DNA of 64,000 bases from positions 62,001 through 126,000 of the forward strand of contig CAMWFQ010000006.1 in assembly GCA_947173495.1 (NCBI GenBank). The letters are read 5' to 3'. A program made the translations under genes and the position numbers. A model generated the notes under the pieces. The model saw only the letters and a list, made by a program, of their open reading frames with translations, was not told the origin of the DNA and made no database searches. Origin of the DNA: an uncultured Lachnospiraceae bacterium (GTDB lineage Bacteria > Bacillota > Clostridia > Lachnospirales > Lachnospiraceae). This document shows, in pieces, positions 38,042-60,963 of the stretch (the stretch's first letter is position 1; every line of letters begins with the position of its first letter).

Positions 38042-38089
38042 TTCTCACGGTCTGTGCAGTTAATGCACAGACCTGGCTGAATAGTTACC
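38042..38089 (-). repeat. Intergenic hairpin repeat B, copy 2
   Basis: On the minus strand it reads GGTAACTATTCAGCC, whose TAA is the stop codon of the DUF6020 gene, then a perfect 10-bp hairpin (38049-38058 with 38064-38073, five-base loop) and GTGAGAA. The stem sequence differs from copy 1 at three pairs, all compensated. The 58-base middle of copy 1 is missing. Confidence 0.7.
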
Positions 38090-39923: not shown

Positions 39924-39945
39924 AGCTGGCCATCCCTTTCTTCTG

Positions 39946-40896
39946 TCAGCGTTCTTCCGATATTTCGCCGGCGATCTCTCTTATCACATACTGAGGGGAA
40001 TTATTCATGGAAATGTACATCCTGCCCATATACTCTCCTACCAGTCCCAGCATCAGCATCAGCATGCCTCCCATAAATACCAGCATCGACATCAGCGCAC
40101 TGAAGCCTGTCACCAGCCCCGGCGGGTTAATAAATATTTTTTTGATAATGGTATAAATTCCATAGGCAAATCCCAGAACGGCACACCCGGCCCCCATCAC
40201 CGTGGCAACTCGCAGAGGCTTGACACTGAAAGCGGTAAAACCGTTGAACCACAGATGAAGGAGCTTTCCAATGGTATAACCGGAGACACCCGCCTGCCTG
40301 TCTCTGTGCTCCACATCCACATTGATAATCTTCTTTGTGGTGCGCAGAACCAGTCCGATCACATAGGGGTAAGCATATTCATACCGGATCACCTCGTCGA
40401 TTACAAACCTTCTGGCCGCAAAATAACTGGAAAGGAACAGATCCCTGGGCTTATCCAGCATTACCCTGGTCATAAGATCATTGACACGGCTTCCCCAGTT
40501 CCGAAAACCAGAATGATGCTTCTGTCTGTATCTGGCATACACCACATCCGCCCCCTGATGGATTCCCTCCAGCAGTCTGTCCACCTGGTCGGCAGGCGTC
40601 TGTCCATCGTCATCCAGGCAGACAACTATCTCACCCTTCACGTAATGAAAGCCTGCCATAAGCGCACTGTGCTGCCCGAAATTTCTCGCAAGATCAATTC
40701 CTGTAACATTGTCATTTTCACGACATAGTCGTTTAATAACAGAAAAAGTGTTATCAGGCGAGCAGTCGTTGACCAGTACCACTTCATATGCATAATTTTC
40801 CTGTTTTTCCATTGTCCGGCGGATTTCCTCTATCACTCCCGGAAGTGTTTCCTCCGAGCGGTAGCAGGGAATCACAAAACTGATCATCGTTTTCAA
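39946..40896 (-). CDS. GtrB/ArnC-like polyprenyl-phosphate glycosyltransferase (GT2)
   Basis: A GT2 enzyme of about 316 residues with two C-terminal membrane helices. VIPCYRSEETLPGVI, VLVNDCSPDNT, LARNFGQHSALMAG and VCLDDDGQTPADQ are typical of the DPM1/GtrB/ArnC group, which charges undecaprenyl phosphate with a sugar. The C-terminal ends in GEYMGRMYI, also a group mark. The TTG at 40896 has AAGGAGG five bases upstream and is the likely start; an ATG at 40920 lacks a site and an ATG at 40887 is too far from it. Its product would feed membrane GT-C enzymes such as the DUF6020 neighbour. Confidence 0.92.
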   Translation of the reverse strand: MKTMISFVIPCYRSEETLPGVIEEIRRTMEKQENYAYEVVLVNDCSPDNTFSVIKRLCRENDNVTGIDLARNFGQHSALMAGFHYVKGEIVVCLDDDGQTPADQVDRLLEGIHQGADVVYARYRQKHHSGFRNWGSRVNDLMTRVMLDKPRDLFLSSYFAARRFVIDEVIRYEYAYPYVIGLVLRTTKKIINVDVEHRDRQAGVSGYTIGKLLHLWFNGFTAFSVKPLRVATVMGAGCAVLGFAYGIYTIIKKIFINPPGLVTGFSALMSMLVFMGGMLMLMLGLVGEYMGRMYISMNNSPQYVIREIAGEISEER

Positions 40897-40913
40897 AGCA
40901 GCCTCCTTATTTT

Positions 40914-41456
40914 TCAGCATCCATTGATTATTGCCATATAGATCACATCCTGATATCTTCCCTCCAGAAAGACCTCGTCCCTTAAATAAGCTTCCTTCAC
41001 AAACCCCGCCTTTTCGTAGCTCCTTATGGCCTGCCTGTTTTCCGCCAGCACCCTGAGCATCAGCTTGTGAAGCTTTTCCTCCTCAAACGCATATCGAATC
41101 ATCAGTCTGGCGGCCCGGGTGCCATAGCCCTTTCTCTGAGCATTCTCTTCTCCTATGAAAATACCATATTCCGCCTTGTGATGAACTCTGTCAATATCCC
41201 GGAGATAGACACTTCCCACCGCCCTTTCCGATTCCCTGATACAGATAATAAACTGAACTGCCCTGCCGGTATCGATCATGGTTTTGATCCAGTTTTCGTG
41301 TCCCTGCCTGGTAAAGGGTTCCCGGTAAATAAATCTGCTCCTTACAAACTCTTGATTCCGCCAGCCTATAATCCGGTCCGTATCCTCCTGCGTCATAAGA
41401 CGCAGAAAAACCTCTTCATCCCCGCTCCACTGCGTATCCCTGTTCTCTTTCATCAT
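40914..41456 (-). CDS. GNAT family N-acetyltransferase, RimJ/PseH/WecD-like
   Basis: A 180-residue GNAT protein. VFLRLMTQEDTDRIIGWRN opens the fold, NAQRKGYGTRAARLMIRYAF is the acetyl-CoA pyrophosphate loop (Q/RxxGxG/A) and SYEKAGFVKEAYLRDEVF ends it. Related enzymes acetylate the 4-amino group of nucleotide sugars: PseH in pseudaminic acid synthesis and WecD for dTDP-Fuc4N. Both substrates are possible here, since an RffA-type aminotransferase is two genes upstream and pse genes are 12 kb away. It could also act on a protein. The preceding gap holds a pentanucleotide repeat. Confidence 0.85.
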   Translation of the reverse strand: MMKENRDTQWSGDEEVFLRLMTQEDTDRIIGWRNQEFVRSRFIYREPFTRQGHENWIKTMIDTGRAVQFIICIRESERAVGSVYLRDIDRVHHKAEYGIFIGEENAQRKGYGTRAARLMIRYAFEEEKLHKLMLRVLAENRQAIRSYEKAGFVKEAYLRDEVFLEGRYQDVIYMAIINGC

Positions 41457-41484
41457 TTTGCTGATCTCCGCTGCTTCTCTTAAA

Positions 41485-41534
41485 GCTTTGCTATGCTACG
41501 CTATGCTATGCTTTGCTATGCTACGCTTTGCTTT
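41485..41534. repeat. Imperfect pentanucleotide tandem repeat, ten units
   Basis: Ten consecutive units of the form GCT(A/T)(T/C) on the plus strand: GCTTT, GCTAT and GCTAC in mixed order. Echoes such as CTATGCTATAC continue towards 41585. It fills the leader between the membrane-protein stop and the GNAT start (28 bases from it) and encodes TAG stops in the minus direction. Confidence 0.85.
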
Positions 41535-41577
41535 TCTTTGTTATGCATGCTATCCAAGCCTTGCTCCACTATCTATG

Positions 41578-43377
41578 CTATACTCCGCTTATGGCTGATA
41601 TCTGATATAGTTCAAACACATCCGCCACCGTTTCGATCTTTATCAGTTCCACCTGTATTCCGTGCCCCAGATAATATTCCGCCAGCCACTCCATATCCTC
41701 CCCGGCCTTCCTGACAAAATATACATTGTCCCTGGCAAGAAGGGCCTGCTCCATAGTCTCAATTCCAAAAAGGGCAAATTTTTTCTTCTGAAGAGGACTT
41801 TTACATGCCCATCCGCCCATAATATCATAATTGTCCAGAGAATTGTCTACCTGTTCAAACATTTTTTCCGAGTAGGAAACAGAGGAATACACATCGATCA
41901 AATAAAAGTTTTCCTTATTTTCCTCCCCGGAAAGATGGCTGTATAGTTCCCTGTAAGGCTGATTCACCATATCCCTCTGCGTCTGATTTACAAGAGCCTC
42001 TCTTATGCTCCCCGGAAGGATCAAAACCGCCAGTATCCCAAACCCTGCCAGAACCGTGAAAGAACAGATCTGCTTTGTCCTGCCCTTTCCGATCTTCTGC
42101 CATTGAGCCAGAATCATGGCTGCCAGAATGCAAAGCTCCATCAGATACAGGGAATGAGTGATACGCGCCGGATCCCGGCCACGCATCAGAATATACATCC
42201 ACAATCCGGTACGGACGCCAAAAAGAATCAGAAGTTTCCAGCCGGTACCCAAAAGCTTTCTTACCGTTTCCTTTTTCCCTCTGCCAGCACCACAAAGGGC
42301 CGTGAAAATCACCAGAAGGTATCCCAATATCACACTGTAATTCCACGGATAATCGCTCCCTGTATCCCCCGGCCCGTGCGTCAGCCGGTAAATATAAAAT
42401 CTGAGTTTCCGTGGCAGCTGCCGGGAAAAAGGTTCCTGGACGCTCTTATTTTCTCCCGCGTACGCTGCAATAGCCCCTATCAGTTGTTCGTCTATCTCTT
42501 CATCCATACCAAAATTGTAATTATCCAAAAGGATCTTTTCGCTTTCCGTAAGACCGATGCTCTGATAAAACGCTCTGTTCTCTTCATAGCCGGGCGGCTC
42601 CTGAAAATCGTAAAGCTCCGTCCTGTTATTAAAAAACTCCATAAAGGCGCGCCACTGCGCGGAGCCATAGGCCAGCATATGCACAGCCTGTCCCAGCAAA
42701 ATACCGGACAGGATCAAACCAATCACGGACAAATACTTGACTGCATTTTCTTTCGTAAAGATTCTCTCTTCACTCCCCCATTTGGCCACGCCCGCCGCAC
42801 AGATCATAGGCAAAACCAGAAGGAGCATCTCCGAGCGGATCAGATAAGCTACTGTCACCAGCAAAACGGCAGGTATATTCCTTTTGATAAATTCCCCGGA
42901 TTTTACCCTCTCATTTGTGGTGTAAAACAAAAACGCCGCTGTGGCCGCAAGAAGGGTACATGTCACCGTATACTGGGCATACACCAGATGCTCCAGAAAC
43001 AAACCTGTGAAAAGCAGCCCCTCTGTCAGAGCCAGGATCAGTTTTCCCCGGTATGTTTTACAAATTTCCATACTCCTTTTTTCGATCAGAAAAAAACAGC
43101 CAAAATGACAGAAACACAAAAACAGCCCATACCAGGGAAGCGGCCTGACCAGTCTGTAAAGCAGACTGATCAGAGCGCTGATGGGCCAGTGCATCTGTAT
43201 ATTACGGCTCTCCGGTTCTCCGGTATAAACCCCTGCAAGTATATCCTTCATCAGCACATCGTCGTTCAGATCATAGTAATAATCAAAAACGCACCCTGTA
43301 AAGACCGCCAGAAGAACTACTGCCAGAAAGGCTGTGATCCCGTTTTCATTTTTTTTAAGCTGTTCCTTAAGCTTCAT
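41578..43377 (-). CDS. Large multi-pass membrane protein of unknown family, possible GT-C
   Basis: A 599-residue protein with about eleven membrane helices and a soluble C-terminal domain of about 110 residues. The first outer loop has YYYDLNDDVLMKDILAGVYTG, an acidic DD pair close to the first helix as in GT-C transferases. I do not recognise a named family. Its start overlaps the RffA-type aminotransferase by 11 bases with AAGGA five bases upstream, so it belongs to that unit. A role in sugar transfer from a polyprenyl donor is inferred from topology and context only. Confidence 0.8.
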   Translation of the reverse strand: MKLKEQLKKNENGITAFLAVVLLAVFTGCVFDYYYDLNDDVLMKDILAGVYTGEPESRNIQMHWPISALISLLYRLVRPLPWYGLFLCFCHFGCFFLIEKRSMEICKTYRGKLILALTEGLLFTGLFLEHLVYAQYTVTCTLLAATAAFLFYTTNERVKSGEFIKRNIPAVLLVTVAYLIRSEMLLLVLPMICAAGVAKWGSEERIFTKENAVKYLSVIGLILSGILLGQAVHMLAYGSAQWRAFMEFFNNRTELYDFQEPPGYEENRAFYQSIGLTESEKILLDNYNFGMDEEIDEQLIGAIAAYAGENKSVQEPFSRQLPRKLRFYIYRLTHGPGDTGSDYPWNYSVILGYLLVIFTALCGAGRGKKETVRKLLGTGWKLLILFGVRTGLWMYILMRGRDPARITHSLYLMELCILAAMILAQWQKIGKGRTKQICSFTVLAGFGILAVLILPGSIREALVNQTQRDMVNQPYRELYSHLSGEENKENFYLIDVYSSVSYSEKMFEQVDNSLDNYDIMGGWACKSPLQKKKFALFGIETMEQALLARDNVYFVRKAGEDMEWLAEYYLGHGIQVELIKIETVADVFELYQISAISGV

Positions 43378-44497
43378 AAAATTCCTTTACTTTTCCCGCA
43401 ATATATTCCGTCTGCTCCGCTGTCAGCTGATAGAACATGGGCAGCCGCAGTAATCTTTCACTTTCTCTGGTCGTATACTTATCCTCCCCGCAAAACCGTC
43501 CAAATCCCATTCCTGCCGGCGCTGAATGAAGGGGCACATAGTGGAACACCGTTAAGATATCGTTTTTCTTCATAAAATCAATCAGCCTGGTTCTCTCCTG
43601 CATATCCTTTGTCTTAATATAGAACATATGACCGTTGTGCACACATCCTTCCGGTATCACCGGCAGCTCGATCCTGCCTGTCTCCTTAAGGGGCTTTAAG
43701 AGTTCATAATACTGATTCCATCTTGCAAGGCGGGCGGCATTGATCTCCTCTGCCATCTCAAACTGCGTATAAAGATACGCAGCATTCATATCGCTGGGAA
43801 GATAAGAGGACCCGAAATTCATCCAGCGGTACTTGTCCACCTGTCCTCTGTAAAACTTACTCCTGTCTGTTCCCTTCTCTCTCAGAATCTCAGCCTTTTC
43901 AATGTCATCCGGATTCCGGATCAGAAGCGCGCCTCCCTCCCCCATACTGAAATTCTTGGTTTCATGAAAGCTGTAGCATCCGTAATTCCCTATGGTTCCC
44001 AGAGCTTTTCCCTTATAACTGCACATAATAGCCTGAGCTGCATCCTCCACCACCATAAGATGATGCCGTCTGGCAATCTCCATAATGGAATCCATCTCAC
44101 AGGCAACTCCCGCATAATGAACCAGAAAAATCGCTCTGGTCTTTTCTGTGACAGCCTCCTCGATCAGCGTTTCATCGATGTTCATGGTATCGGGCCGGAT
44201 ATCCACAAACACCGCCTTTGCCCCCCGGAGTACGAAGGCATTTGCAGTAGACACAAAGGTATAGGAAGGCAGAATCACCTCATCCCCTTCCCTGAGATTA
44301 CAGAGCAGCGCCGCCATCTCCAGCGCATGGGTGCAGGAAGTGGTGAGAAGGCACCTGGCCGTTCCTGTAATCCTTTCCAGATACTCACTGCATTTTCGAG
44401 TGAACTCCCCGTCACCGCAGATATGCATATTTTCAATTGCTTGCTGTACATTTTCCATTTCCTTTCCCGTATAGGGCGGTACATTAAATCGTATCAT
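43367..44497 (-). CDS. rffA: dTDP-4-amino-4,6-dideoxygalactose transaminase, RffA/WecE type
   Basis: A 376-residue DegT-family aminotransferase. IRFNVPPYTGKEMENVQQAI and CLLTTSCTHALEMAALL are close to RffA/WecE, and YSFHETKNFSMGEGG places the PLP lysine at residue 181. RffA aminates dTDP-4-keto-6-deoxyglucose to dTDP-Fuc4N. The dTDP-glucose genes rmlA and rmlB are not in the window. The ATG at 44497 has GAGGA five bases upstream and is chosen over the ATG 15 codons earlier, which lies in the tail of the preceding gene. The GNAT at 40914 could finish dTDP-Fuc4NAc. Confidence 0.92.
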   Translation of the reverse strand: MIRFNVPPYTGKEMENVQQAIENMHICGDGEFTRKCSEYLERITGTARCLLTTSCTHALEMAALLCNLREGDEVILPSYTFVSTANAFVLRGAKAVFVDIRPDTMNIDETLIEEAVTEKTRAIFLVHYAGVACEMDSIMEIARRHHLMVVEDAAQAIMCSYKGKALGTIGNYGCYSFHETKNFSMGEGGALLIRNPDDIEKAEILREKGTDRSKFYRGQVDKYRWMNFGSSYLPSDMNAAYLYTQFEMAEEINAARLARWNQYYELLKPLKETGRIELPVIPEGCVHNGHMFYIKTKDMQERTRLIDFMKKNDILTVFHYVPLHSAPAGMGFGRFCGEDKYTTRESERLLRLPMFYQLTAEQTEYIAGKVKEFYEA

Positions 44498-44534
44498 TTT
44501 CGTCCTCATTCTCTCATTTCTGTTTGGCTCTGTC

Positions 44535-46367
44535 TTATTCATATACTACAAAAGCTTCATTGGCAAATACCTGCTCATAATCATTCGTTTCCATAAAGTC
44601 CTGTATCGCGCCAAGCTTGTCGTCAGTCCTGCACTTTTCCGTATCCGTTCCCCACCAGCTTATAGCTTCCTGATCTCCCGCAAGGAAAGCGGCAAGCGGC
44701 GGCGTCAGAATCACCAGCGGCTTCTCCTGCTCCTCTGCACCAAGCCGCAACGTAAGCTCCTCCAGATCTTCCTTCAGCTGCAGAAGAGAATTGGTATCCA
44801 GATCTGCCCAGGTGGTATAAATGGCCGGCGCTTTATCCAGATAGTAAGATAAACCGGGAATATTTCCATAAAGGACCAGCTTTTTCTCTGCATACTCCTC
44901 TTTATGCTCCAGCATAAAATAGGAAATCTCCTCCAGTGTTTCCGCGTTCATTTCTCCTGTATACATTCCATGGAGCACAGGGTTGGCGGCAACCTTGTAG
45001 ATCCTCTCTTCTCCTCCTTCCCCATCCAGAAAAACATAGAAAAGCCCGACTCCCACAGCCTGAATGAAGAATGCAATCAATATCCCTGAAAGCATGGCCT
45101 TGGCTGAAAACAGAGGCACCTTTCTTGTCGTATCCAGATAGGTTCTCCCCCACCTTGCAAACCGATAGACCATCCAGAATACCACCGGCGCAATAAAGAA
45201 CAGATGATTCAGTACCGGCCAGATATGATTGTTGCTTCCCAGCGGTGTAATCAGAATCATTAAAAGAGCGATACAGCCGATCAGCCGCCACTCATCGTCC
45301 AGCATTCTGGTAAAAAGCATCCACAACGTTACCCCCACTGCAACCAGAAGAAATACTGCGCCCCATTGAAGCGCCGCTTCCTTCTGATAATATCTGAAAT
45401 TATACATCCCCCATTTTCCAAGTACAAAAAACAGCAGAGGAATGCACACACAATAAACTATTTTCCTGAGATTCAAAAACCGCTCCTGCCGGATCACCAG
45501 AAAAGGAATTCCCGGTAAAATACACAGGATCATATACAGCATCCACTGCAGGCCATGAAAATACGCATCCAGTATGGCCAGCAGCATCTCTCCAAAGGTA
45601 TAATCCGAAGCTCCCTGGGTCATTCCGAAGACTCCCTGGATCATTCTGCCGAACGCATCCATACCATAGACCGCCGAGATTACCGCAATTCCGGTCAGAA
45701 AAGCAGCCAGATATCCTGCTGCGCACAGCCCCGTCTCCTTTGCCATCTGCAAAGCTGGCTTTTTCTTCAGGATCCCATAATACCACAGTGCAAGAATCAG
45801 TCCCGCCTCCAATACATTGCCGGGGAAACGCACCAACGCATTGATTCCCAACAGCACACCGGCCAGCACCAGAGCCCCTTTCCGACCTCCGGCCAGCCCC
45901 CGGAACAGAAGAATACCGCCCAGCAGAAACAGCAAATAAGTAAGGTAATTGTACAGGATCACTGTCGGACACCAGCACAGACCAATTGCCGCAATCTCTC
46001 CCGCAAAAGCCAGCCAGGCAGGCATCTTTGTCCTGAAAAAACGATAACCCAGAAGAGCTGTCATACTCACGAGCAGCGAGGTATAAAGCTTCATTCCCAG
46101 CATAGTATCCCCCATAGGAAGCTTTGTCAACCCATATCCAGCTACATTAGACCAGAAAGTAAGAAGCGTCCACAGGCTGTTTCCTTCCCCAAAAAACCGA
46201 TAATTTCCCAGACTGTAGCCTGTATCTGTCAGATCAATCCCTTCTGCTGCCTTAATAAGGGGGAATAAAAACAACACCAGCGGAAACAGCATATTCTGCA
46301 GATACCGCCATCCCTGCTGCCACTTTTTTTCATCTGTCATACCGGTAAAATCCCTTCCAACCTTCAT
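44535..46367 (-). CDS. Large multi-pass membrane protein of unknown family, possible GT-C
   Basis: A 610-residue protein with about twelve membrane helices and a soluble C-terminal domain of about 150 residues. The first outer loop has KAAEGIDLTDTGYSLGNYRF, placing acidic residues just after helix 1 as in GT-C transferases. NALVRFPGNVLEAG and NHIWPVLNHLFFIAP are other marked segments. I do not recognise a family. ATGA overlap with the acyltransferase gene and AAGGAG eight bases upstream show coupling. It differs in sequence from the membrane protein at 41578 but shares its layout. Confidence 0.8.
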   Translation of the reverse strand: MKVGRDFTGMTDEKKWQQGWRYLQNMLFPLVLFLFPLIKAAEGIDLTDTGYSLGNYRFFGEGNSLWTLLTFWSNVAGYGLTKLPMGDTMLGMKLYTSLLVSMTALLGYRFFRTKMPAWLAFAGEIAAIGLCWCPTVILYNYLTYLLFLLGGILLFRGLAGGRKGALVLAGVLLGINALVRFPGNVLEAGLILALWYYGILKKKPALQMAKETGLCAAGYLAAFLTGIAVISAVYGMDAFGRMIQGVFGMTQGASDYTFGEMLLAILDAYFHGLQWMLYMILCILPGIPFLVIRQERFLNLRKIVYCVCIPLLFFVLGKWGMYNFRYYQKEAALQWGAVFLLVAVGVTLWMLFTRMLDDEWRLIGCIALLMILITPLGSNNHIWPVLNHLFFIAPVVFWMVYRFARWGRTYLDTTRKVPLFSAKAMLSGILIAFFIQAVGVGLFYVFLDGEGGEERIYKVAANPVLHGMYTGEMNAETLEEISYFMLEHKEEYAEKKLVLYGNIPGLSYYLDKAPAIYTTWADLDTNSLLQLKEDLEELTLRLGAEEQEKPLVILTPPLAAFLAGDQEAISWWGTDTEKCRTDDKLGAIQDFMETNDYEQVFANEAFVVYE

Positions 46368-51520: not shown

Positions 51521-52633
51521 CTAAAAAATCTGCTCATTCTGCCTGTGAATCTCAGGTGCTTCGTACTGATCCATAAAATCTTCTCCCAGAAATATTTTTT
51601 CTCCGGCAAAGCGGATCGCGGAAGGAACTGTAAATACTGTGACAACTCTGTCAAAATACAGTCCCCTGATGTAATTCAGAATCTCCATGGGGAATTTTCC
51701 ATCCAGCACGATATGCTCCGGAAACAGCTCTCTGTAATCCAGCACGTCCCTGGGATGCGGCTTAATCATGATCTGCGCTTTTTGTCCGTTTATACTGCCG
51801 TACTGATCGATAATGTCTCTGAAGATCTGCTTTCTTGTTTCCAGATCACACAGCGGTTCCGAAAGCACCAGCACCTTATGCCTGTGTCCCCTGCCGGACG
51901 CCAGCATATTCTCCAGTTCTTCCATCTCAGGTACAAAAATTGACACAAGCGTCTTTTTTTCTTCTTCCCCAAGCTTTTCTGTCAGCTCTCTCCGGGGCTT
52001 TTCAATATATTTTTTACAGGGATATTCCAGCACAGAAATATCGTTCACTTCCATATCCAGACAATACTTTGCATAGCCGTTCTGAATAAAAATCAGATTC
52101 CTGGCCGCCATCCATGCTTTCAGTCCAAAATGTCCCCGGTTATCAAAGCGGGCTGTATCATAATAACGGATACAGTCCAGCCCGTCCTCCAGAGCATGAT
52201 AATAGATTTTGTGGGTATTCAGATAATAGCCGATCGGGTCTGAATCACAGAATACATAGATGTCTTCATAGGCTTTTAAATCCACCGGTACAAAAGGCGC
52301 CTGGAGTTTTCCCAGCAGCCTGGTATATTTCATTCTTGCAAGCATATTGAGCAGAATATTTCCTCTGTCCTGATGATAACGGGACAGTTCCGGAAAAAAA
52401 CTCTCTCCCTTCTCATCATAGGAGATTACTTCCTGAAACAGCCCTGAGCGCTGAGCACGTTTCTTTAAAGAACCAAAGTCGTTTGACAGAGAGCTGAGCA
52501 TGAGACTGGCCTGTCCTCTTGCCGCTCCGCTTTCTCCTTCCGGCAGATTCAGCTCCTTCAGACAGGCAATGTATACATGGTAGTAGGTATGGCAGATATA
52601 AATACGCTGCCTGGATTTCGCAGTTTTTCTCAT
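51521..52633 (-). CDS. Sialyltransferase-like enzyme (GT52/polysialyltransferase group), probable nonulosonic acid transferase
   Basis: A 370-residue GT-B protein with the two motifs that define bacterial sialyltransferases: the D/E-D/E-G motif as LEDG (148-151) and the HP motif as KPHPRD (291-296), plus a later VPSAI (336-340) that matches the serine motif. IYICHTYYHVYIA at the N-terminus also fits GT52. It is divergent to pseF with promoters that overlap, so its donor is most likely CMP-pseudaminic acid made next door, not CMP-Neu5Ac. That donor is inferred. GAGGAG six bases before ATG supports the start. Confidence 0.82.
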   Translation of the reverse strand: MRKTAKSRQRIYICHTYYHVYIACLKELNLPEGESGAARGQASLMLSSLSNDFGSLKKRAQRSGLFQEVISYDEKGESFFPELSRYHQDRGNILLNMLARMKYTRLLGKLQAPFVPVDLKAYEDIYVFCDSDPIGYYLNTHKIYYHALEDGLDCIRYYDTARFDNRGHFGLKAWMAARNLIFIQNGYAKYCLDMEVNDISVLEYPCKKYIEKPRRELTEKLGEEEKKTLVSIFVPEMEELENMLASGRGHRHKVLVLSEPLCDLETRKQIFRDIIDQYGSINGQKAQIMIKPHPRDVLDYRELFPEHIVLDGKFPMEILNYIRGLYFDRVVTVFTVPSAIRFAGEKIFLGEDFMDQYEAPEIHRQNEQIF

Positions 52634-52824: not shown

Positions 52825-53529
52825 ATGAACGGTCAGAAGCTTGCCATCATTACCGCCCGGGGAGGCAGCAAACGGATTCCCCGGAAAAATATCAGAGAAT
52901 TCTGCGGAAAACCGATTCTTTATTATTCCATTGAAGCCGCCAGAGGCGCCGGCATTTTTGATGAGATCATGGTATCCACAGATGACAGCGAAATTGCCCT
53001 GGCGGCCCGACAGGCCGGGGCCAGTGTTCCTTTTTTTCGCTCCGCAGCAAATGCAGGGGACTATGCATCCACTGATGACGTCATTATGGAAGTCCTGACG
53101 GCCTACAGACAGACGGGGCGGGAATTTGAATCTTTCTGCTGTATCTATCCCACTGCCCCCTTTATCAGCGGCAAGCGGCTTCGCACCGCCATGGAGCTTT
53201 TGTCGGAGGCGGACAGTGTTTTGCCTGTGGTTCCCTTCTCTTACCCTCCGCAGCGTGGGCTGATCATCAGCGAAGAAGGGTATGTTAAGCGACAGTTTCC
53301 TGAATACGCCTCTGCCCGCAGCCAGGATCTTCCCAAAATCTATCACGACTGCGGACAGTTTTACGCATGCCGCACCAAAGCCTTTTTCGATGCCGGAACC
53401 ACGGATGTCAGACGTCTTCTCCCCCTTGTACTGACAGAACTTGAGGTCCAGGACATTGACACTTTGGAGGACTGGGAAATGGCGGAAATCAAATACCGGC
53501 TCCTGCACCAGCCAGACGGACAGGATTAA
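52825..53529 (+). CDS. pseF: Pseudaminic acid cytidylyltransferase
   Basis: A 234-residue CMP-sugar synthetase that activates pseudaminic acid with CTP. ITARGGSKRIPRKNIREFCGKP (from residue 9) is the nucleotide-binding loop; ASTDDVIMEVL, CCIYPTAPF and SYPPQRGL follow PseF more closely than NeuA. RSQDLPKIYHDCGQFY is a PseF mark. It is first in the plus-strand pse unit, 27 bases before the PLP decarboxylase-like gene. Confidence 0.92.
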   Translation: MNGQKLAIITARGGSKRIPRKNIREFCGKPILYYSIEAARGAGIFDEIMVSTDDSEIALAARQAGASVPFFRSAANAGDYASTDDVIMEVLTAYRQTGREFESFCCIYPTAPFISGKRLRTAMELLSEADSVLPVVPFSYPPQRGLIISEEGYVKRQFPEYASARSQDLPKIYHDCGQFYACRTKAFFDAGTTDVRRLLPLVLTELEVQDIDTLEDWEMAEIKYRLLHQPDGQD

Positions 53530-53556
53530 GTAATCGTTTTTTAAAAGGAGATTTTT

Positions 53557-54756
53557 ATGAATCAGATACAGACTCCTTTCTTCCGGATAAAGGAAAAGGA
53601 TTTATTATATGATATCTCTCTGTTAAGGGAAGCCCTCAGTCTGAACTGGGGAAATTATGTCATGGGTTATTCTGTCAAGACCAATTCCCTGCCCTGGCTC
53701 CTTGTATACCTGAAACAGCAGGGTTTTTATGCGGAAGTCGTATCCAGAACAGAATTTGACCTGGCTATCCGGCTGGGCTTTCCGGCACAGCATATTATTT
53801 ATAATGGTCCAATCAAAGACAAAAAAGTATTTGAGAGGGTTCTGCTCTCCCATGGGTATGTCAATCTTGATTCCAGTTACGAGCTGGACTGGATGGAGGA
53901 GCTGAGCGCTCTTTACCCCAACAATGAATTCCGGATTGGGCTGCGCGTCAACTGTGATCTTGCCGCCCTGTGCCCGGAAGAAGAGCTTGCAGCGCAGGAA
54001 GGTGGAAGATTTGGCTACTGTTATGAGAACGGTATACTGGCAGCCGCCATATCCAATCTCTCCAGACTGCCCAATGTGAGGATTGCAGGACTTCATTTAC
54101 ATTCTTCCACCCAGTCCCGCACTGTACAGGTCTTTGCCTCTCTCGCCCGCATGGCTGTCCGGATTGCCCGAGAGTACTCATTGACCCTGTCTTATGTGGA
54201 TATGGGGGGCGGCTACTTTGGCGGCCGGGATGACAAACCGGATTATCGGGATTATTTCAGGGAAATAGGGAGGGAATTATCTGCTTTTTTTGATCCCGCT
54301 CAGACTGTGCTCATTGCAGAGCCCGGCGTTTCTCTGATCTCAAGAGCCACCACCTTTGAGACCTCCGTGATTGATATCAAGGACATCAGAGGCACAAAAT
54401 TTGTGGTGACAGATGGAAGCCGGACCAATTTAAATCCGCTGGTAACAAGACATGTGTACCCTCATCATATCAAATATATTTCTGATGCATCTGTCAGAAA
54501 TAAGACAGCCAGCCAGTGGGTCTGCGGAGCCACATGTATGGAATATGACCGGCTGTTTGAGATTGTAAACGGTCCCTCTCTCCTGCCCGGTGACAGAATC
54601 ATCTATGATACGGCAGGCGGATATACCATGTGCCTAAACCCTCTGTTTATTAATTATTTTCCTGCCGTTTACGCAGAACATGAAGACGGTTCTCTTTTCA
54701 CGGCCAGGCAGGCATGGACCAATGAAGAGTTTTTGCAGAAAAACTATATGGAATAG
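53557..54756 (+). CDS. LysA-like PLP-dependent decarboxylase inside the pse operon
   Basis: A 399-residue fold-type III enzyme (alanine racemase-like barrel plus beta domain). YSVKTN gives the PLP lysine at 41, HLHSSTQ and DMGGGYFGG bind cofactor phosphate, and WVCGATCMEYDRL holds the cysteine block of diaminopimelate and ornithine decarboxylases. In those enzymes EPGR supplies a substrate-binding arginine; here it is AEPGVSL, so the substrate is probably not diaminopimelate. Such a gene is not a standard part of pseudaminic acid synthesis. With the ATP-grasp gene at 56947 it may make an amine or amino acid to be joined to the sugar. AAGGAG precedes the ATG. Confidence 0.88.
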   Translation: MNQIQTPFFRIKEKDLLYDISLLREALSLNWGNYVMGYSVKTNSLPWLLVYLKQQGFYAEVVSRTEFDLAIRLGFPAQHIIYNGPIKDKKVFERVLLSHGYVNLDSSYELDWMEELSALYPNNEFRIGLRVNCDLAALCPEEELAAQEGGRFGYCYENGILAAAISNLSRLPNVRIAGLHLHSSTQSRTVQVFASLARMAVRIAREYSLTLSYVDMGGGYFGGRDDKPDYRDYFREIGRELSAFFDPAQTVLIAEPGVSLISRATTFETSVIDIKDIRGTKFVVTDGSRTNLNPLVTRHVYPHHIKYISDASVRNKTASQWVCGATCMEYDRLFEIVNGPSLLPGDRIIYDTAGGYTMCLNPLFINYFPAVYAEHEDGSLFTARQAWTNEEFLQKNYME

Positions 54757-54783
54757 ACCATTATCACCTCAGGAGAAAAAAAT

Positions 54784-55836
54784 ATGAAGGACGAAATCAG
54801 AATTGGCAGCCGGGTCATCAGCAGCGAGTCTCCCGTCTTTGTAGTCGCGGAGCTTTCTGCCAATCATAATCAGGATTACAGCCGGGCTCTGGAAATTCTC
54901 CACGCTGCAAAAGAGGCCGGAGCAGACGCAGTAAAGCTGCAGACCTATACGGCGGATACCATCACGATTGACTGTGATGATCCTTGCTTTCAGATCAACG
55001 AAGGAACGATCTGGGACGGCACTACTCTATATAAGCTGTACCGTCAGGCTTATACTCCCTGGGAATGGCAGCCAAAGCTGAAAGAGGAAGCAAACCGTCT
55101 GGGTATGGAATGCTTTTCTTCCCCTTTTGACTTTACCTCTGTGGATTTTCTGGAAAGCATGGATGTTCCCGCCTACAAAATAGCCTCCTATGAGATCAAT
55201 GACATCCCGTTGATTCGAAAGATCGCCCGCCTCCATAAACCTGTCATTTTTGCCACTGGAATTGCTTATCCGGAGGATATTAAGCGGGCGCTCAGCATCT
55301 GTCGTGAAGAAGGAAATGAGGATATCATTCTGCTTAAGTGCGTCTCCTCCTATCCCACCCCCTATGAGGACGTAAACCTGAATGTCATTCCCACTCTGGC
55401 AGCCACCTACGGCTGCCTGGTAGGGATTTCCGATCACACTATGGGAAGCATTATTTCTGCCGCCTCTGTAGCCCTCGGCGTAAAAATGGTAGAAAAGCAT
55501 CTCACCCTGCGTCGCTCAGATGGCGGGCCTGATGGCGCCTTTTCTATGGAGCCGGAAGAGTTTGCCCGAATGGTGGCAGACATCCGGATCATGGAAAAAG
55601 CCCTGGGCAGCAGCTGCTACCGGCTCACCGATACCCAGAAGCTGGAGCATGGCGGTTCGCGCTCCCTTTTTGTGGTAAAAGATATTGCGGCAGGAGAAAA
55701 ACTGACCCCTGAAAATATTCGTTCTATCCGCCCGGGCAACGGTCTCCATACCATGTATTATGAGCAGGTCCTGGGAAGATGCGCTAAAATCCCTCTTAAG
55801 AAAGGAACGCCTCTTCAATGGGAACTGATCGATTAA
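54784..55836 (+). CDS. pseI: Pseudaminic acid synthase
   Basis: A 350-residue NeuB-family enzyme that condenses the six-carbon diacetamido sugar with phosphoenolpyruvate to give pseudaminic acid. FVVAELSANHNQDYSRALEI, AVKLQTYTADTITIDCDD, TPWEWQPKL and YKIASYEINDIPLI match PseI. ISDHTMGS and EKHLTLRRSDGGPD complete the barrel. The C-terminal antifreeze-like SAF domain (about 290-350) is present. It overlaps pseG by 19 bases and follows the PLP gene by 27 with AGGAG before the ATG. Confidence 0.95.
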   Translation: MKDEIRIGSRVISSESPVFVVAELSANHNQDYSRALEILHAAKEAGADAVKLQTYTADTITIDCDDPCFQINEGTIWDGTTLYKLYRQAYTPWEWQPKLKEEANRLGMECFSSPFDFTSVDFLESMDVPAYKIASYEINDIPLIRKIARLHKPVIFATGIAYPEDIKRALSICREEGNEDIILLKCVSSYPTPYEDVNLNVIPTLAATYGCLVGISDHTMGSIISAASVALGVKMVEKHLTLRRSDGGPDGAFSMEPEEFARMVADIRIMEKALGSSCYRLTDTQKLEHGGSRSLFVVKDIAAGEKLTPENIRSIRPGNGLHTMYYEQVLGRCAKIPLKKGTPLQWELID

Positions 55837-56927
55837 TCTATATCCGGACCGACGGAAATCCTCATATTGCTTCCGGGCACCTTATGCGGTGCTTCTCTAT
55901 CGCACAGCAATGTCAGCGATTTGGGATGACTGTCTGTTTTCTTGTTTCTGACAAAGAGAGCCTGAGCCTTCTGGAAGGAATTCCGAATTCTGATACCTTC
56001 TCTGTCCTTCAGCTGCAGACCGCTCTCTATCATGATCTGGACCGCGAACTGCCGGAAGTAAAGATGTTACTTTCTTCCCAACATGACACATCTGTCACAA
56101 ACAGAGAAATATTGTATATGATTGATTCTTATTATGTGACCGAGCATTATCTGCGTTCCTTAAGTTCTCTGGTCAGGACCGTTTATCTGGACGATCTCCG
56201 GCTCTTTGATTATCCGGTAGATCTGCTGATCAATTATGATGTTATCCCGGACAGACAGATGCCCCTTTACAGGGCCGCCTACCGCAATGCCTCTCATCTT
56301 CTTCTGGGCGCTTCCTATGCCCCTCTGCGCCGCCAGTTCCAGAACCGGGAGATCCCTGTAGCTGAAACGGTAAGCAACATTCTGATCACTACCGGAGGAA
56401 GCGATCCTTACCACTTTTGTCTGGATTTTATTCATAAAATCAGAACATCCAATTACACGGATCTGTTCGGAAACGGTGAAATCTTCTTTCATATTGTCAT
56501 TGGAAGCCTGAACGCGGACCGGGATCTTCTTTTTTCCCTGGGAGAAAAACTGCCTTTTTTACGGCTTCATGAAAATGTAAGCGATATGGCATCCCTGATG
56601 GCGCGCTGTGATCTGGCCATATCCGCTGCCGGAACCACATTATATGAGCTGTGCGCTCTGGGAATTCCCGCTCTCAGCTTTACCATGGCGGACAATCAGC
56701 TGGCTGCCGCAAAAGCCTTTCATGAGGCAGGCGCTATTGTCTGCGCGGGAGATCTGCGTAAGGAGCCGGCGGATGTACTGCAGAAATCCATTCTATTTAT
56801 AAAGGAAAGTTCTCTCTCAAACAGGCAGGCAGCCCATGCCATTATGCGGCAGCTTGTGGATGGCAGCGGCGCTTGCCGTATTGCTCAGGCCCTGGATAAA
56901 CTGCAGCGTCATAAGATTGAAAATTAA
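55818..56927 (+). CDS. pseG: UDP-2,4-diacetamido-2,4,6-trideoxy-beta-L-altropyranose hydrolase
   Basis: A 369-residue GT-B fold hydrolase that removes UDP before the PseI step. IYIRTDGNPHIASGHLMRC carries the histidine of the GHxxR motif (residue 21), ILITTGGSDPYHF opens the second domain and SAAGTTLYELCALGIPALSF is the UDP-binding block. YLDDLRLFDYPVDLLINYD is also typical. The start lies inside pseI. The last codons and the stop (KIEN then TAA) come from a palindromic repeat shared with 15456-15479. Confidence 0.93.
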   Translation: MGTDRLIYIRTDGNPHIASGHLMRCFSIAQQCQRFGMTVCFLVSDKESLSLLEGIPNSDTFSVLQLQTALYHDLDRELPEVKMLLSSQHDTSVTNREILYMIDSYYVTEHYLRSLSSLVRTVYLDDLRLFDYPVDLLINYDVIPDRQMPLYRAAYRNASHLLLGASYAPLRRQFQNREIPVAETVSNILITTGGSDPYHFCLDFIHKIRTSNYTDLFGNGEIFFHIVIGSLNADRDLLFSLGEKLPFLRLHENVSDMASLMARCDLAISAAGTTLYELCALGIPALSFTMADNQLAAAKAFHEAGAIVCAGDLRKEPADVLQKSILFIKESSLSNRQAAHAIMRQLVDGSGACRIAQALDKLQRHKIEN

Positions 56928-56937
56928 ATTTTTAATC
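56915..56937. repeat. AT-rich palindrome, copy 2, at the end of pseG
   Basis: GATTGAAAATT pairs with the following ATTTTTAATC apart from one position. It provides the last residues and stop codon of pseG and lies between that gene and the convergent ATP-grasp gene. It may form a weak bidirectional hairpin. Confidence 0.6.
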
Positions 56938-56946
56938 GTGTCCGAT

Positions 56947-58137
56947 CTATGTCATAAACAGTGTCCTGATCGCCGTCGCCTGAGCCTCCAGCATCGCCTG
57001 ATCTTCCCCTTCCAGCACAAAATATCCTCTCTCCATCAGAGAATGTCCATCTGAGACCGTTCTCAGCTCATCCTCCTCTCTGAGAGTGCACTCCCACGCG
57101 GCCAGAGAAGCACCGACCGCCCTCTCCGCCTGTCCTCGGTCCGGCACACATCTCACTTTTCCCTGCATATCAAAATAATGAATCAGCATAGATCTGGTAT
57201 AACGGGGGACAAAATTTCCGCCAATTCTCATCTGGTATTTAATATACTCCTCCGCCATATCCACGCCAGTGCACAGAGGGGTGAACAGATTGTGCAGATT
57301 ATGCCCGGAAGGTCTCGCTGAGAGTTCTATCACAAAGGGCCCTTTCGCCCCCTTTATAATATCCGCATGGAGCAGGCATTCCTTCAGTCCCAGGCTGCTG
57401 ATAATATCTGCCATATACTGTTGCACCTGTAACCGGAATTCATCAGCCGAAAGAACCGAAAAATATCCTACTGCCTGTCTGGCCGGCGGCGGCGTATTAA
57501 TCTTTTTGCGAAGAAGGATCATCTGGAATCCATCTTCTGTCACTGCCCCATCCACCCCATACTCTTCCCCGGCAATACATTCTTCCAGCACATAGGCTTC
57601 ACCAGCGGTCAGCGGCAGAAACTTCCTAAGCTGTTCTCTGTTGTCTGCCATATAGATTCCCCGGCTGCCGGATCCATATCTCGGCTTTAAAATCGCCGGA
57701 AACAGAAATTCCCGCATATCGATTTTCGCATCTGCCCCATCTGCTGTCCCGGCTTTTTCCACACCATAATTGACCGCAGTACAATGGCACTCCCGCAGCC
57801 CGTCTCTGCTCAGCTTTTGATGAAATAGGTATTTATCCGTACACAAAACCGCCATTTCTCTGCTGATCCCCGGCAATCCCAGCGCATCGTTTACAGCTCC
57901 TGTGGTAGTCAGATATCTTCCGATTGGCACCGGCAAAACAAAATCAGGCTTTTCCTTTTTTAATGTTTCTATCACTGCATTCTCGTCCGAAATATCTACC
58001 ACCATTGAATAGTCGGCTGTCTTCAGGCCCTCCGCCCGGGGATTCCCGTCCAGAGCCAGGACTCTGATCCCATGCTCCCGAGCTTTTTTGATGGTATGCT
58101 CCGCCTCGCGGCTGGCACCTATGACTGCTGCTTTCAT
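56947..58137 (-). CDS. ATP-grasp ligase next to the pse genes
   Basis: A 396-residue ATP-grasp protein. MKAAVIGASREAEHTIKKA and VLALDGNPRAEGL are the N-terminal Rossmann domain, FPAILKPRYGSGSRGIYMA the ATP lysine and loop, EEYGVDGAV the hinge block and FVIELSARPSGHNLHNL the metal site. It is convergent with pseG and 100 bases downstream of a GT2/pseC unit. Such ligases form amides between a carboxylate and an amine. A role in attaching an amino acid to a pseudaminic acid derivative is my inference, based on place and on the adjoining decarboxylase-like gene; synthesis of an unrelated dipeptide is the alternative. Confidence 0.85.
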   Translation of the reverse strand: MKAAVIGASREAEHTIKKAREHGIRVLALDGNPRAEGLKTADYSMVVDISDENAVIETLKKEKPDFVLPVPIGRYLTTTGAVNDALGLPGISREMAVLCTDKYLFHQKLSRDGLRECHCTAVNYGVEKAGTADGADAKIDMREFLFPAILKPRYGSGSRGIYMADNREQLRKFLPLTAGEAYVLEECIAGEEYGVDGAVTEDGFQMILLRKKINTPPPARQAVGYFSVLSADEFRLQVQQYMADIISSLGLKECLLHADIIKGAKGPFVIELSARPSGHNLHNLFTPLCTGVDMAEEYIKYQMRIGGNFVPRYTRSMLIHYFDMQGKVRCVPDRGQAERAVGASLAAWECTLREEDELRTVSDGHSLMERGYFVLEGEDQAMLEAQATAIRTLFMT

Positions 58138-58211: not shown

Positions 58212-58241
58212 TGTATAGCAGACATTTAAAAAAAATTTCAA
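58212..58241 (-). promoter_or_regulatory. Candidate promoter for the ATP-grasp gene
   Basis: Minus-strand TTGAAA (58236-58241) and TATACA (58212-58217) with an 18-base spacer. The -35 lies inside the terminator hairpin of the upstream gene, a compact stop-and-restart layout. Confidence 0.4.
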
Positions 58242-58259
58242 ATCCTTTTTCTGAAATTT
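58228..58259 (-). terminator. Rho-independent terminator at the end of the GT2 gene
   Basis: On the minus strand AAATTTCA (58252-58259) and TGAAATTT (58233-58240) form an eight-bp stem with an 11-base loop, running into eight T residues (58235-58228). The stem is AT-rich. The TGA stop of the GT2 gene is part of the descending arm. Confidence 0.55.
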
Positions 58260-59260
58260 CTGTACCCCCAAAGCGCTTTGTAGTACAGCATAAAATATAA
58301 AGTTGATTTCATATGCATCCTGATCAGCTTTCTCTCTTCTTCATGGACCCTTTCCTGATAATAAGGATTCTCCATAAAACCGGGAAATGTCTCCTTCATC
58401 TCCCGTCCAAGAGCCTTCACAAATCCATACTCTGTCTTTCTTACCCCCGCCATATAAGAAAACAGTGTATTTACGTAAAACAGCGTAGTAAAGCTACTTT
58501 CAATTTCAGGATAATATTCTTCCAGATAGCCAAACTGGTCTGCCTCCTTCACCATGACTCTTGCCGCCTCCATTCGGTCTTCACAGCGCTTCTTTGTGAT
58601 GGTGTGGACCGTGGACGCGTCATGTTGATAATAGTAATAAAGAGGCTCCTCCAGATATTCAAAGCGTCTGGCCCGGAGCATCCAGGAATTACTGATGGCA
58701 TTATCCTCGTAAAATATATTTTCGGGAAAACGATTGGGAAAATCCAGAATGATATGGCGCCTGTAGATTTTCACCACCAGGCTTCCACTGTCAAGGATCA
58801 GAGATCTGTATTTTTCTTTGGTGAGAATGCCTGTCTGAGATTTCTTGTTATTGTGTACAATCTGTCCGATTTTCATGCTGTGCTCACCGGTCAGATGATA
58901 ATCACATCCTACAATGTCCGCCTCTGTCTCTTCCCCGCGTCTTATCAGCTTTTCATAAAAATCATGGGTCACCCAGTCATCACTGTCAATAAATCCGATC
59001 CATTCTCCTCTGGCAGCTGCGAGTCCAAGATTCTTAGCTCCTCCCTGCTTTTTGTTGACGGGCGAAACAATCACCTGAATTTTTCCGGGGTATTTCTTTT
59101 CATACTCCCGGAGAATTGCAAGGGAACCGTCTGTAGAACAGTCGTCTACTGCTATGATCTCGTAATCCGACAGGGTCTGATTCACCAAAGACTCCAGGCA
59201 CCAGGACAGCTTGTCCTGCGCCGCCATATTGTAAACAGGTACGATCACACTCAGCTTCAT
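58238..59260 (-). CDS. Glycosyltransferase family 2
   Basis: A 340-residue GT2 enzyme with LSVIVPVYNMAAQDKLSWCLESL, IAVDDCSTDGSL, KKQGGAKNLGLAAA and FIDSDDWVTHDF. The C-terminal half is helical. Its start overlaps the pseC stop as ATGA, so the two are translated together. Members of this group often act on teichoic acid or capsule sugars. It may add the sugar that carries, or is next to, pseudaminic acid. Confidence 0.9.
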   Translation of the reverse strand: MKLSVIVPVYNMAAQDKLSWCLESLVNQTLSDYEIIAVDDCSTDGSLAILREYEKKYPGKIQVIVSPVNKKQGGAKNLGLAAARGEWIGFIDSDDWVTHDFYEKLIRRGEETEADIVGCDYHLTGEHSMKIGQIVHNNKKSQTGILTKEKYRSLILDSGSLVVKIYRRHIILDFPNRFPENIFYEDNAISNSWMLRARRFEYLEEPLYYYYQHDASTVHTITKKRCEDRMEAARVMVKEADQFGYLEEYYPEIESSFTTLFYVNTLFSYMAGVRKTEYGFVKALGREMKETFPGFMENPYYQERVHEEERKLIRMHMKSTLYFMLYYKALWGYRNFRKRI

Positions 59261-60462
59261 TCTGATAAATCCCTTTTAAAATACTCTGCTATCTTCGTCA
59301 CCGCACGGATCACATCCTGCACGTCCCGATCCGTCATGGCATAGTACAGCGGCAGACTGATAATTTCCTCATATAATTTCTCTGCTTTCGGGCACAGTCC
59401 TCTCCTATAGCCCAGTTTCTCATAATAAGGAAAATAATAAGTGGGAATATAATGTACATTGCAGCATATGTTCTCCGCCTCAAGAGCCTCAAAAAATTGC
59501 TTTCTGTTGACAGTAAGTCTCTTAAGGTTCAGCCGCAGAATATACAGATGCCTGGTAGTGTCTGACTCCGGTATTTCCTTTTGAAGAATAATCTGAGGAA
59601 GTTTTCCAAACGCTTCATTGTAAGTTTTTACAATTTCTTTCCGTCTTTTTGAAAAAGCCGGCAGCTTATCCAGCTGACTGATCAGAAGCGCTGCCTGCAT
59701 ATCTGTCATTCTGTAATTCATTCCCAGGGCTATCTGTTCATAATACCAGGGGCCATCAGGATCATGTTCCATCAGAGCAGGATCTTTTGTTATCCCATGG
59801 GTTCGATACAGCAGCAGCTTTTTGTAATATTCTTCATTATTCGTAAGCACCGCTCCGCCTTCCCCGCAGGTAACAGTCTTCACAGGATGAAAGCTTAATG
59901 TCGTCATATCTGCAATGGAACCATTGTATCTGCCTTTATACCGGGTTCCAATGACATGGGCGCCATCCTCGATCAGCACCAGCTTCCTGGACCGGCAGTG
60001 CGCAAGAAGCTCCGAAAGCTCCACCGACTGACCTGTATAATCCACGGCCACTACCGCTTTTGTTTTTGCACTGGTCACGGCTGCCACCTGCTCCGGATCA
60101 ATATTAAAGGTTTCCTCATTAATATCTGCAAACACAGGCGTTGCTCCACAGTACAGGGCACAATTGGCAGATGCCGCAAAAGTAACAGGCGTTGTGATCA
60201 CCTCATCGCCTTCTCCCACGCCTGCCGCCTGACATGCCATATGCAGCGCCGCTGTCCCGTTCGAGCATACTACCGCATATTTTGCTCCCGTAATCCGGCA
60301 CAGCTTTTCCTCCAGTTCTGCGATCTTCGGACCACACGTAAGATAATCGCTCCTTAAGACTTCCGTCACCGCCTGTATATCCGCTTCATCAATATACTGA
60401 TGACCATAATATATTTTCGTATCCCGGACGGGATTTCCTCCGCATACTGCAGGCTTGTCCAT
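59257..60462 (-). CDS. pseC: UDP-4-amino-4,6-dideoxy-N-acetyl-beta-L-altrosamine transaminase
   Basis: A 401-residue aminotransferase. IYYGHQYIDEADIQAV, YLTCGPKIAELEE, NGTAALHMACQA, VDYTGQSVELSELL and LSFHPVKTVTCGEGG (PLP lysine at 195) match PseC, the second step of pseudaminic acid synthesis. The ATG at 60462 has AGGAGG six bases upstream; an ATG nine codons earlier has none. It is 23 bases after the Spo0A-C gene, which suggests a shared transcript. The enzyme before it in the pathway, PseB, is not in the window. Confidence 0.94.
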   Translation of the reverse strand: MDKPAVCGGNPVRDTKIYYGHQYIDEADIQAVTEVLRSDYLTCGPKIAELEEKLCRITGAKYAVVCSNGTAALHMACQAAGVGEGDEVITTPVTFAASANCALYCGATPVFADINEETFNIDPEQVAAVTSAKTKAVVAVDYTGQSVELSELLAHCRSRKLVLIEDGAHVIGTRYKGRYNGSIADMTTLSFHPVKTVTCGEGGAVLTNNEEYYKKLLLYRTHGITKDPALMEHDPDGPWYYEQIALGMNYRMTDMQAALLISQLDKLPAFSKRRKEIVKTYNEAFGKLPQIILQKEIPESDTTRHLYILRLNLKRLTVNRKQFFEALEAENICCNVHYIPTYYFPYYEKLGYRRGLCPKAEKLYEEIISLPLYYAMTDRDVQDVIRAVTKIAEYFKRDLSE

Positions 60463-60485
60463 AGCTTTCCTCCTGTTAATGTTCC

Positions 60486-60920
60486 TCATATAGTTCCGGC
60501 TGTTTCTTCCTGTTCAAAATTCCGGTCAGATGTCAGTATTTCCGCTCGTTCCTGTGCGCCAACCTGTATTCTTACTTTATCGGCAATTGCCGCTATGTAC
60601 TCACTGTTGGTCGGTCTTCCCTGTCCGCTTTCGGCACAGTATCCAAACAGATTCTCAAAGGTCTTCCTGTTTCCTCTCTCCCATGAGATCTCTATCGCAT
60701 TGCGAATCGCCCGTTCAACCTTGCCGTCTGTCGTACTGTAACGTTTTGCAATTTCCGGATAAAGCAGCTTCGTTACACTGCCTACCACCTTCATGTCTTT
60801 CTCTGCCATGAGAATGGCCGTACGCACATATCTGTAACCTTTTAGATGCGCCGGGACGCCCATATCCAGCATCATGTGCGAAATCATCTGTTCTATTTTC
60901 TTTTCCATTTCCTTTTGCAT
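60486..60920 (-). CDS. Standalone Spo0A C-terminal DNA-binding domain protein
   Basis: A 144-residue protein made almost only of the Spo0A effector domain. MGVPAHLKGYRYVRTAILMA, LLYPEIAKRYSTTDGKVERA, IRNAIEISWERGN and NLFGYCAESGQGRPTNSEYI match the C-terminal half of Spo0A, including the recognition helix region that follows TTDGKVERAIR. There is no receiver domain and no phosphorylated aspartate, so it should not answer to the sporulation phosphorelay directly. It probably binds Spo0A-like boxes or pairs with another factor. The ATG at 60920 has AAAGGA eight bases upstream; a TTG at 60926 is too close to it. The last 25 residues are acidic. Confidence 0.9.
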   Translation of the reverse strand: MQKEMEKKIEQMISHMMLDMGVPAHLKGYRYVRTAILMAEKDMKVVGSVTKLLYPEIAKRYSTTDGKVERAIRNAIEISWERGNRKTFENLFGYCAESGQGRPTNSEYIAAIADKVRIQVGAQERAEILTSDRNFEQEETAGTI

Positions 60921-60963
60921 TACCAAAATCCTTTCACTTTACAATGACCTGTTCATTACAGTA

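Follow-up and report, generated by a model that had tools for sequence, protein, structure and literature searches.

Nonulosonic acids are normally acidic, and some of them are recognised by sialic-acid-binding proteins. The canonical pathway to one of them, pseudaminic acid, comprises PseB, PseC, PseH, PseG, PseI and PseF. We compare it here with a pseudaminic acid (pse) block in 64,000 nucleotides of DNA from an uncultured Lachnospiraceae bacterium (GenBank assembly GCA_947173495.1, contig CAMWFQ010000006.1, positions 62,001 to 126,000; hereafter the window), which belongs to a single contig; the genome measures 4.58 Mb. The block resembles the canonical pathway in holding PseC, PseG, PseI and PseF close together, with PseB elsewhere in the genome. 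It differs in that no canonical PseH lies beside PseI, and a predicted fold-III pyridoxal 5'-phosphate (PLP) decarboxylase (DCx) and an ATP-grasp ligase (ATPg) are present instead. We consider it quite probable that the two enzymes act jointly to form an N-acyl group, which replaces the acetyl added by PseH. Computed features of the locus underlie this proposal: its gene set, the conserved pairing, the lack of a canonical PseH beside it, the predicted folds and the retained catalytic residues.

Butirosin biosynthesis also has an ATP-grasp partner, BtrJ, for a fold-III decarboxylase. That decarboxylase, BtrK, converts carrier-bound glutamate to 4-aminobutyrate (PMC7857480); butirosin uses a carrier protein, whereas none was noticed in the pse block, where no search for one was made. 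DCx shares the alanine-racemase fold with FslC/FigC, SbnH, AcsE, MccE and BtrK, and is nearest by profile to FslC/FigC. FigC, SbnH, AcsE, MccE and BtrK are described as acting on amino acids already linked to another moiety (PMC7857480). FigC differs in that its partner is a siderophore synthetase rather than an ATP-grasp enzyme, and its Arg387 and Arg290 are replaced in DCx.

ATP-grasp ligases have also been described in flagellin nonulosonic-acid or amino-sugar loci. Shewanella SO_3265 (SfmE) shares its operon with a PseI-like protein; the species is reported to be without a clear PseH, and loss of SfmE shifts flagellin mass (PMC3765264). In Clostridioides difficile type B flagellin, an ATP-grasp mutant is described as being without the aminoacyl (peptidylamido) sugar, the precise role of the enzyme being left by the authors to be determined (PMC5207246, PMC5207245). 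Unlike the DCx pair, neither system has a decarboxylase mentioned in the available portions of these accounts (PMC3765264, PMC5207246). At the level of the sugar rather than of the genes, the nearest comparison is Leg5GluNMe7Ac of Clostridium botulinum, a known glutamyl nonulosonic acid (PMC5207245); it is a legionaminic acid with the glutamyl group at N-5, not decarboxylated. Pseudaminic acid bearing amino acids in ester linkage has been described as well (PMC5207245).

The initial annotation of the window had suggested an aminoacyl or amine-bearing nonulosonic acid, as a new branch of the pathway. The suggestion remains the best reading of the locus; decoration with amino acids, however, is not itself new, amino-acid-bearing nonulosonic acids being already known (PMC5207245), and the locus does not amount to a proven new sugar. 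The annotation had not remarked that the block is without a canonical PseH, that DCx is FslC-like or that the pair turns up in other amino-sugar clusters with a different ATP-grasp enzyme. As far as the open-licence literature shows, three features are new, namely the decarboxylase, the way it is paired with an ATP-grasp ligase, and the alternation with PseH: in the open-licence literature on nonulosonic acids and the enzymes we found no account of a DCx/ATP-grasp pair in pseudaminic acid loci.

Pairing of DCx with ATPg and alternation with PseH

PseF, PseI, PseG and PseC all score above their NCBIfam equivalog cut-offs (Table 1), in agreement with the initial annotation, which had called the first three standard. 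It had also remarked on a decarboxylase gene fitted tightly between pseF and pseI, and the gaps are indeed 27 bases on both sides; pseI and pseG overlap by 19 bases, and a GGAG resembling a ribosome site, read by eye, precedes DCx and pseI each. The ligase gene had been described as ending close to pseG. The proximity holds (19 bases), with the gene lying on the opposite strand, convergent to pseG, as the last of a minus-strand run from pseC through a family 2 glycosyltransferase (GT2) to ATPg. A PseB above its cut-off lies about 44 kb beyond the window, and by these cut-offs PseB, PseC, PseF, PseG and PseI of the canonical pathway are all present in the genome.

A genome-contig scan confirmed 204 relatives of DCx, of which the best 80 together with the window give 81 loci. 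Main counts were taken from six-frame profile searches, because greedy open reading frame (ORF) calling missed some genes that were masked by antisense ORFs. In 68 of the 81 loci the distance from DCx to PseI is at most 300 bases, and in 65 DCx is equally close to PseF or fused to it; the fusion accounts for 21 loci, 17 of them titled Butyrivibrio. ATPg occurs within the locus in 66/81, and in fused loci such as L220 the genes ATPg, PseF-DCx, PseI and PseG share one strand, making the pair co-directional, unlike in the window. Among the remaining 15 genomes, 13 have ATPg elsewhere, L241 has another ligase (ATPg2) and L236, with a genome of 1.8 Mb, has none. The gene arrangement reflects more than chance, since it recurs in the fetched relatives, and these counts support DCx and ATPg as conserved members of the block. 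The initial annotation had held that its proposal would fail if the two genes mostly lay away from pse genes in relatives; this is not the case in the window and the closest 80 of the 204, while distant DCx genes are mostly outside pse loci.

Among 299 genomes of the family, nearly all from different genera, 65 match DCx at 1e-10, and eight carry a pse-type gene by a line that we set at E below 1e-120. With a wider DCx profile at 1e-60, matches were found in 17/392 genomes of the order and in 6/398 across the phylum, four of the latter outside the family. DCx is present in Parablautia intestinalis D8-82, in the relatives scan, and in G264, whose genus is that of the window.

For comparison with loci that lack DCx, we used the 68 places in the 299 genomes at which PseI scores above the family cut-off, comprising seven DCx loci, 60 that were fetched and a second place of G276 that was left. 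L124, the PseI of the DCx genome G037 on another contig, was dropped, which leaves 59 DCx-free loci; NeuB-like hits below the cut-off are outside this set. Four of the 81 DCx loci have no PseI in view and were excluded, giving 77, and L032 to L038 were omitted from the DCx-PseI distance and PseH counts, most of them recurring among the best 80; L032, of the window's genus, was also omitted from the count by genus. Canonical PseH, called from 50 bits upwards and at most 6 kb from PseI, was found in 0/77 DCx loci vs 25/59 other PseI loci (p 2e-11, the 77 being related), and with one locus per genus in 0/7 vs 25/59 (p 0.03). A strong ATPg (at least 250 bits) was found in 3 of the 59 DCx-free loci and, by genus, in 7/7 with DCx vs 3/59 without (p 1.5e-7).

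The 59 DCx-free loci themselves divide into 24 with PseH only, 16 with any ATP-grasp gene only, one with both and 18 with neither by these profiles (p 2e-4); where 6 kb is available on both sides, the numbers are 18, 11, 1 and 13 (p 0.003). Therefore, within this family, ATP-grasp ligases generally, and not ATPg alone, tend to occur where PseH does not. A related ATP-grasp gene stands beside a class-III aminotransferase in L094 (5750-8204) and L149 (10425-12851), where DCx and canonical PseH were not found, possibly a second acyl-donor route. Separately, the PseI loci L106 (10408-12393) and L108 (8343-9089), where the usual PseF has a low score, contain another cytidylyltransferase-like protein, which is fused to an ATP-grasp domain in L106.

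That PseH is wholly missing from the genome can be rejected. The curated NCBIfam PseH model TIGR03585, run on 67 genomes, matches in 7/8 DCx family genomes (E of 1e-12 or below); the matches belong to a WecE cassette and never fall within the fetched pse block. This partly independent check is incomplete, since at its threshold the model also missed some canonical PseH proteins.

Enzyme classes and proposed chemistry

DCx scores above no NCBIfam equivalog cut-off, and the FslC/FigC N-citrylornithine decarboxylase model NF041039 (127.5 bits, cut-off 500) and the LysA model TIGR01048 (126.6 bits, cut-off 297.9) are level. Among solved relatives compared by profile, FslC/FigC is nearest (187.2 bits), followed by LysA (129.5) and BtrK (116.7). 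The initial annotation had seen a LysA-like enzyme; the fold-III PLP decarboxylase-like assignment was right, while the closer likeness is to FslC. A housekeeping LysA was considered and rejected on the TIGR01048 score and because a second fold-III enzyme in the genome fits that model better (283.9 bits, just under the cut-off) and is likely the cell's LysA. DCx has the alanine-racemase fold with both domains, and its catalytic Lys41, Glu255 and Cys327 are invariant across 26 alignment rows; it also shares a C-M-x-x-D loop with FigC. Fold and catalytic residues support a predicted alpha-decarboxylation.

The sequence AEPGVSL is present where LysA has EPGR, and the arginine, as had been noted, is absent: every row of the tree, 23 of them pse-type and 14 sister, has V, I, T, M, N, S or A instead. 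Its earlier description as a substrate arginine is only partly right, the EPGR motif being located at the PLP phosphate (PMC12599289). FigC Arg290, which aligns with DCx Val258 in a pairwise alignment, is reported to contact that phosphate and, in a docking model, to join a water-mediated network with the substrate (PMC7857480). Its loss chiefly concerns a cofactor-phosphate contact, and the argument from it is weak; the invariant Arg188 of DCx may, as a guess, take its place. FigC Arg387, given a role in citrate binding by the docking model (PMC7857480), aligns with DCx Leu360. ATPg carries a PF13535 domain (51.5 vs 27 bits) with a predicted ATP-grasp fold and resembles L-amino acid ligases; structures were compared by aligning the chains that Foldseek ranked highest. 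The fold and the precedents support ATP-dependent amide bond formation by ATPg as its predicted reaction.

We propose that the pair probably attaches an amine-bearing group in place of acetyl, which would yield a surface sugar with a positive charge. PseB and PseC would supply UDP-4-amino-4,6-dideoxy-L-AltNAc, and ATPg would activate the side-chain carboxylate of an acidic amino acid (Asp or Glu, guessed by analogy with BtrK) and join it to the free amine, the alpha-amino and alpha-carboxyl groups staying free. PseG would then remove UDP and PseI build the nine-carbon acid, after which DCx, encoded between PseF and PseI or fused to them, would remove the alpha-carboxyl. The likely product would be a zwitterionic omega-aminoacyl sugar, 5-N-acetyl-7-N-(beta-alanyl or 4-aminobutyryl) pseudaminic acid, to be charged with CMP by PseF and passed to the family 52 (GT52) and GT2 glycosyltransferases. 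We infer the amino acid, the N-7 site, the order of steps and the product, and this full route, with acidic-amino-acid ligation followed by late decarboxylation, is a tentative proposal that we place just short of an even chance.

The strongest alternative reverses the order: DCx would act on free Asp or Glu to make an omega-amino acid, beta-alanine or 4-aminobutyrate respectively, which ATPg would ligate to give the same product. The class-III aminotransferase that replaces DCx beside the ATP-grasp gene in L094 and L149 fits two supplies of one omega-amino acid. We nonetheless regard this order as rather unlikely, given that DCx is closest to FslC/FigC, which is described as acting on a conjugated amino acid (PMC7857480), and is fused in 21/81 loci to the late enzyme PseF. 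That ATPg instead amidates a sugar carboxylate, such as the nonulosonic C-1, with a diamino acid that DCx decarboxylates to an aminoalkyl amide is quite improbable. The FigC substrate is such a conjugate (PMC7857480), and L039 has EctB, a diaminobutyrate transaminase (569.9 vs 552.2 bits), upstream of DCx and separated from it by one gene; yet EctB occurs in 1/14 sister loci, bacillosamine-type sugars have no carboxylate, and CMP activation and later transfer normally require a free one.

Several points weigh against a pair that takes the place of PseH. Of the same 59 DCx-free loci, 15 went into the canonical PseH profile, which favours matches among them, and the 77 or 81 DCx loci are related and non-independent. 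Strong ATPg relatives occur without DCx in L094 and L149, with the class-III aminotransferase, and in L126, with PseH. Shewanella is a loose precedent, being also without a clear PseG, PseI and PseF (PMC3765264). With the phosphate arginine gone, DCx could catalyse a different reaction. A DCx that no longer decarboxylates, serving for example as a racemase or as a structural partner of PseF, would fit replacement of that arginine in every pse-type and sister row, and strikes us as barely credible with both domains kept and the catalytic Lys, Glu and Cys invariant. Finally, a GCN5-related N-acetyltransferase (GNAT) at 40914-41456 in the window, 11.4 kb from pseF, exceeds the PseH-model cut-off (97.5 vs 93.1 bits), as does a match in G264, and acetylation of pseudaminic acid by the window GNAT is possible. 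The sugar would then be ordinary Pse5Ac7Ac, with DCx and ATPg adding a group elsewhere in the glycan. We judge this unlikely: all eight PseH-model stretches checked (seven genomes, two stretches for G000) score higher with a WecE-linked GNAT profile than with that of canonical PseH, WecE lies within three genes of such a GNAT in 5/7 genomes, and in L127 a canonical PseH occurs alongside such a GNAT. In the window, WecE (620 bits vs cut-off 375) is two genes away from the GNAT. Matches of this cassette to the PseH model may be over-calls.

Sister loci and implications

Fourteen sister loci score above 300 bits with the DCx profile. An ATP-grasp gene of the PRK12767 type, ATPg2 (518 bits vs cut-off 271 in L041), directly adjoins DCx in 11 of them, the exceptions being L043, L045 and L261, the last of which has another ATP-grasp gene with two genes between it and DCx. 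For relatives below 200 bits the proportion is 1/6 (L263; not L047, L048, L049, L262 or L264). An aminotransferase of the LegC family or DegT type, together with a PglC-like sugar transferase, is found in many sister loci (names mostly assigned by eye); L260 reads as a legionaminic-type cluster, also by eye, L258 reads PseC-DCx-ATPg2, and bacillosamine-type clusters contain the sister pair as well. A PglD-like ORF was seen by eye at L257 (12964-13710).

Because aminotransferases making 4-amino sugars recur across the settings of DCx, the genomic context supports a 4-amino-sugar amine as the putative acceptor. In a tree that we rooted on L049, the pse-type clade has as its neighbours L241 and L258, each of which carries ATPg2 as well as pse genes, and the split of L241, L258 and the pse-type clade from other sisters has support 1.00. 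The simplest account would be that the pair began with ATPg2 and that the ligase partner was later exchanged while the pair persisted. We suggest, as a possibility that we rate below even, that a portable ligase-decarboxylase module took over from the N-acetyltransferase in three or more 4-amino-sugar pathways of Clostridia (pseudaminic, legionaminic-type and bacillosamine-type), installing omega-aminoacyl groups to give zwitterionic nonulosonic acids and linkage sugars, its ATP-grasp partner being exchanged over time.

If this is true, a free N-7 amine would make nonulosonic acids zwitterionic and alter how gut bacteria such as Eisenbergiella, Parablautia, Butyrivibrio and their kin look to hosts and phages. 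DCx together with an ATP-grasp gene would then be a genetic marker predicting non-acetyl nonulosonic acids, and the enzyme pair could be used for making modified amino sugars.

Neighbouring genes

Table 1. Genes of the pse block, with positions in the window
Gene	Predicted product	Position	Strand	Remarks
GT52	GT52-family glycosyltransferase, candidate pseudaminyl transferase	51521..52633	-	PF07922 50.1 vs 26.1; in at least 57/80 fetched loci
pseF	CMP-pseudaminic acid synthetase	52825..53529	+	TIGR03584 266.6 bits, cut-off 205.7
DCx	FslC-like fold-III PLP decarboxylase (predicted)	53557..54756	+	proposed substrate: amino acid, free or sugar-conjugated
pseI	pseudaminic acid synthase	54784..55836	+	TIGR03586 472.1 bits, cut-off 340.25
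pseG	UDP-sugar hydrolase	55818..56927	+	TIGR03590 172.2 bits, cut-off 153.55
ATPg	ATP-grasp carboxylate-amine ligase	56947..58137	-	proposed sugar-amine aminoacylation, PseH stand-in
GT2	GT2 glycosyltransferase	58238..59260	-	PF00535; frequent neighbour, in at least 49/80 fetched loci
pseC	UDP-4-amino-sugar transaminase	59257..60489	-	TIGR03588 459.7 bits, cut-off 423.5; source of the amine proposed for acylation

The GT2 and GT52 neighbour counts are lower bounds, coming from greedy ORF calls. Flagellins are present in 7/7 DCx genomes tested (G137 was outside the test); despite this, the sugar is as likely to be destined for a surface polysaccharide as for flagellin, because the GT52 and GT2 transferases of the block adjoin polysaccharide genes. 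A promoter and terminator scan gave 21 promoter-like sites vs 12.9 expected and eight terminator-like sites vs 9.5, and was not used.

Directly upstream of pseC, at 60486-60926 (-), is a 146-amino-acid protein that represents a Spo0A C-terminal DNA-binding domain on its own (132.4 bits vs 25). The WecE cassette of the window (38085-44542, -) contains two large unnamed ORFs, an ArnC/PgfS-like glycosyltransferase, the GNAT that passes the PseH cut-off and WecE, and recurs in other DCx genomes. The window also holds a second amino-sugar cluster at 29546-35196 (-), with a PglF-like dehydratase, a LegC-family aminotransferase, a sugar-phosphate transferase, a fold-II PLP enzyme (30529-31587; nearest the D-cysteate sulfo-lyase and D-cysteine desulfhydrase models, under their cut-offs) and a PRK12767 ATP-grasp gene (29546-30526; 489.8 vs 271 bits). 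Its layout matches several sister DCx clusters, with a different PLP enzyme beside the ligase.

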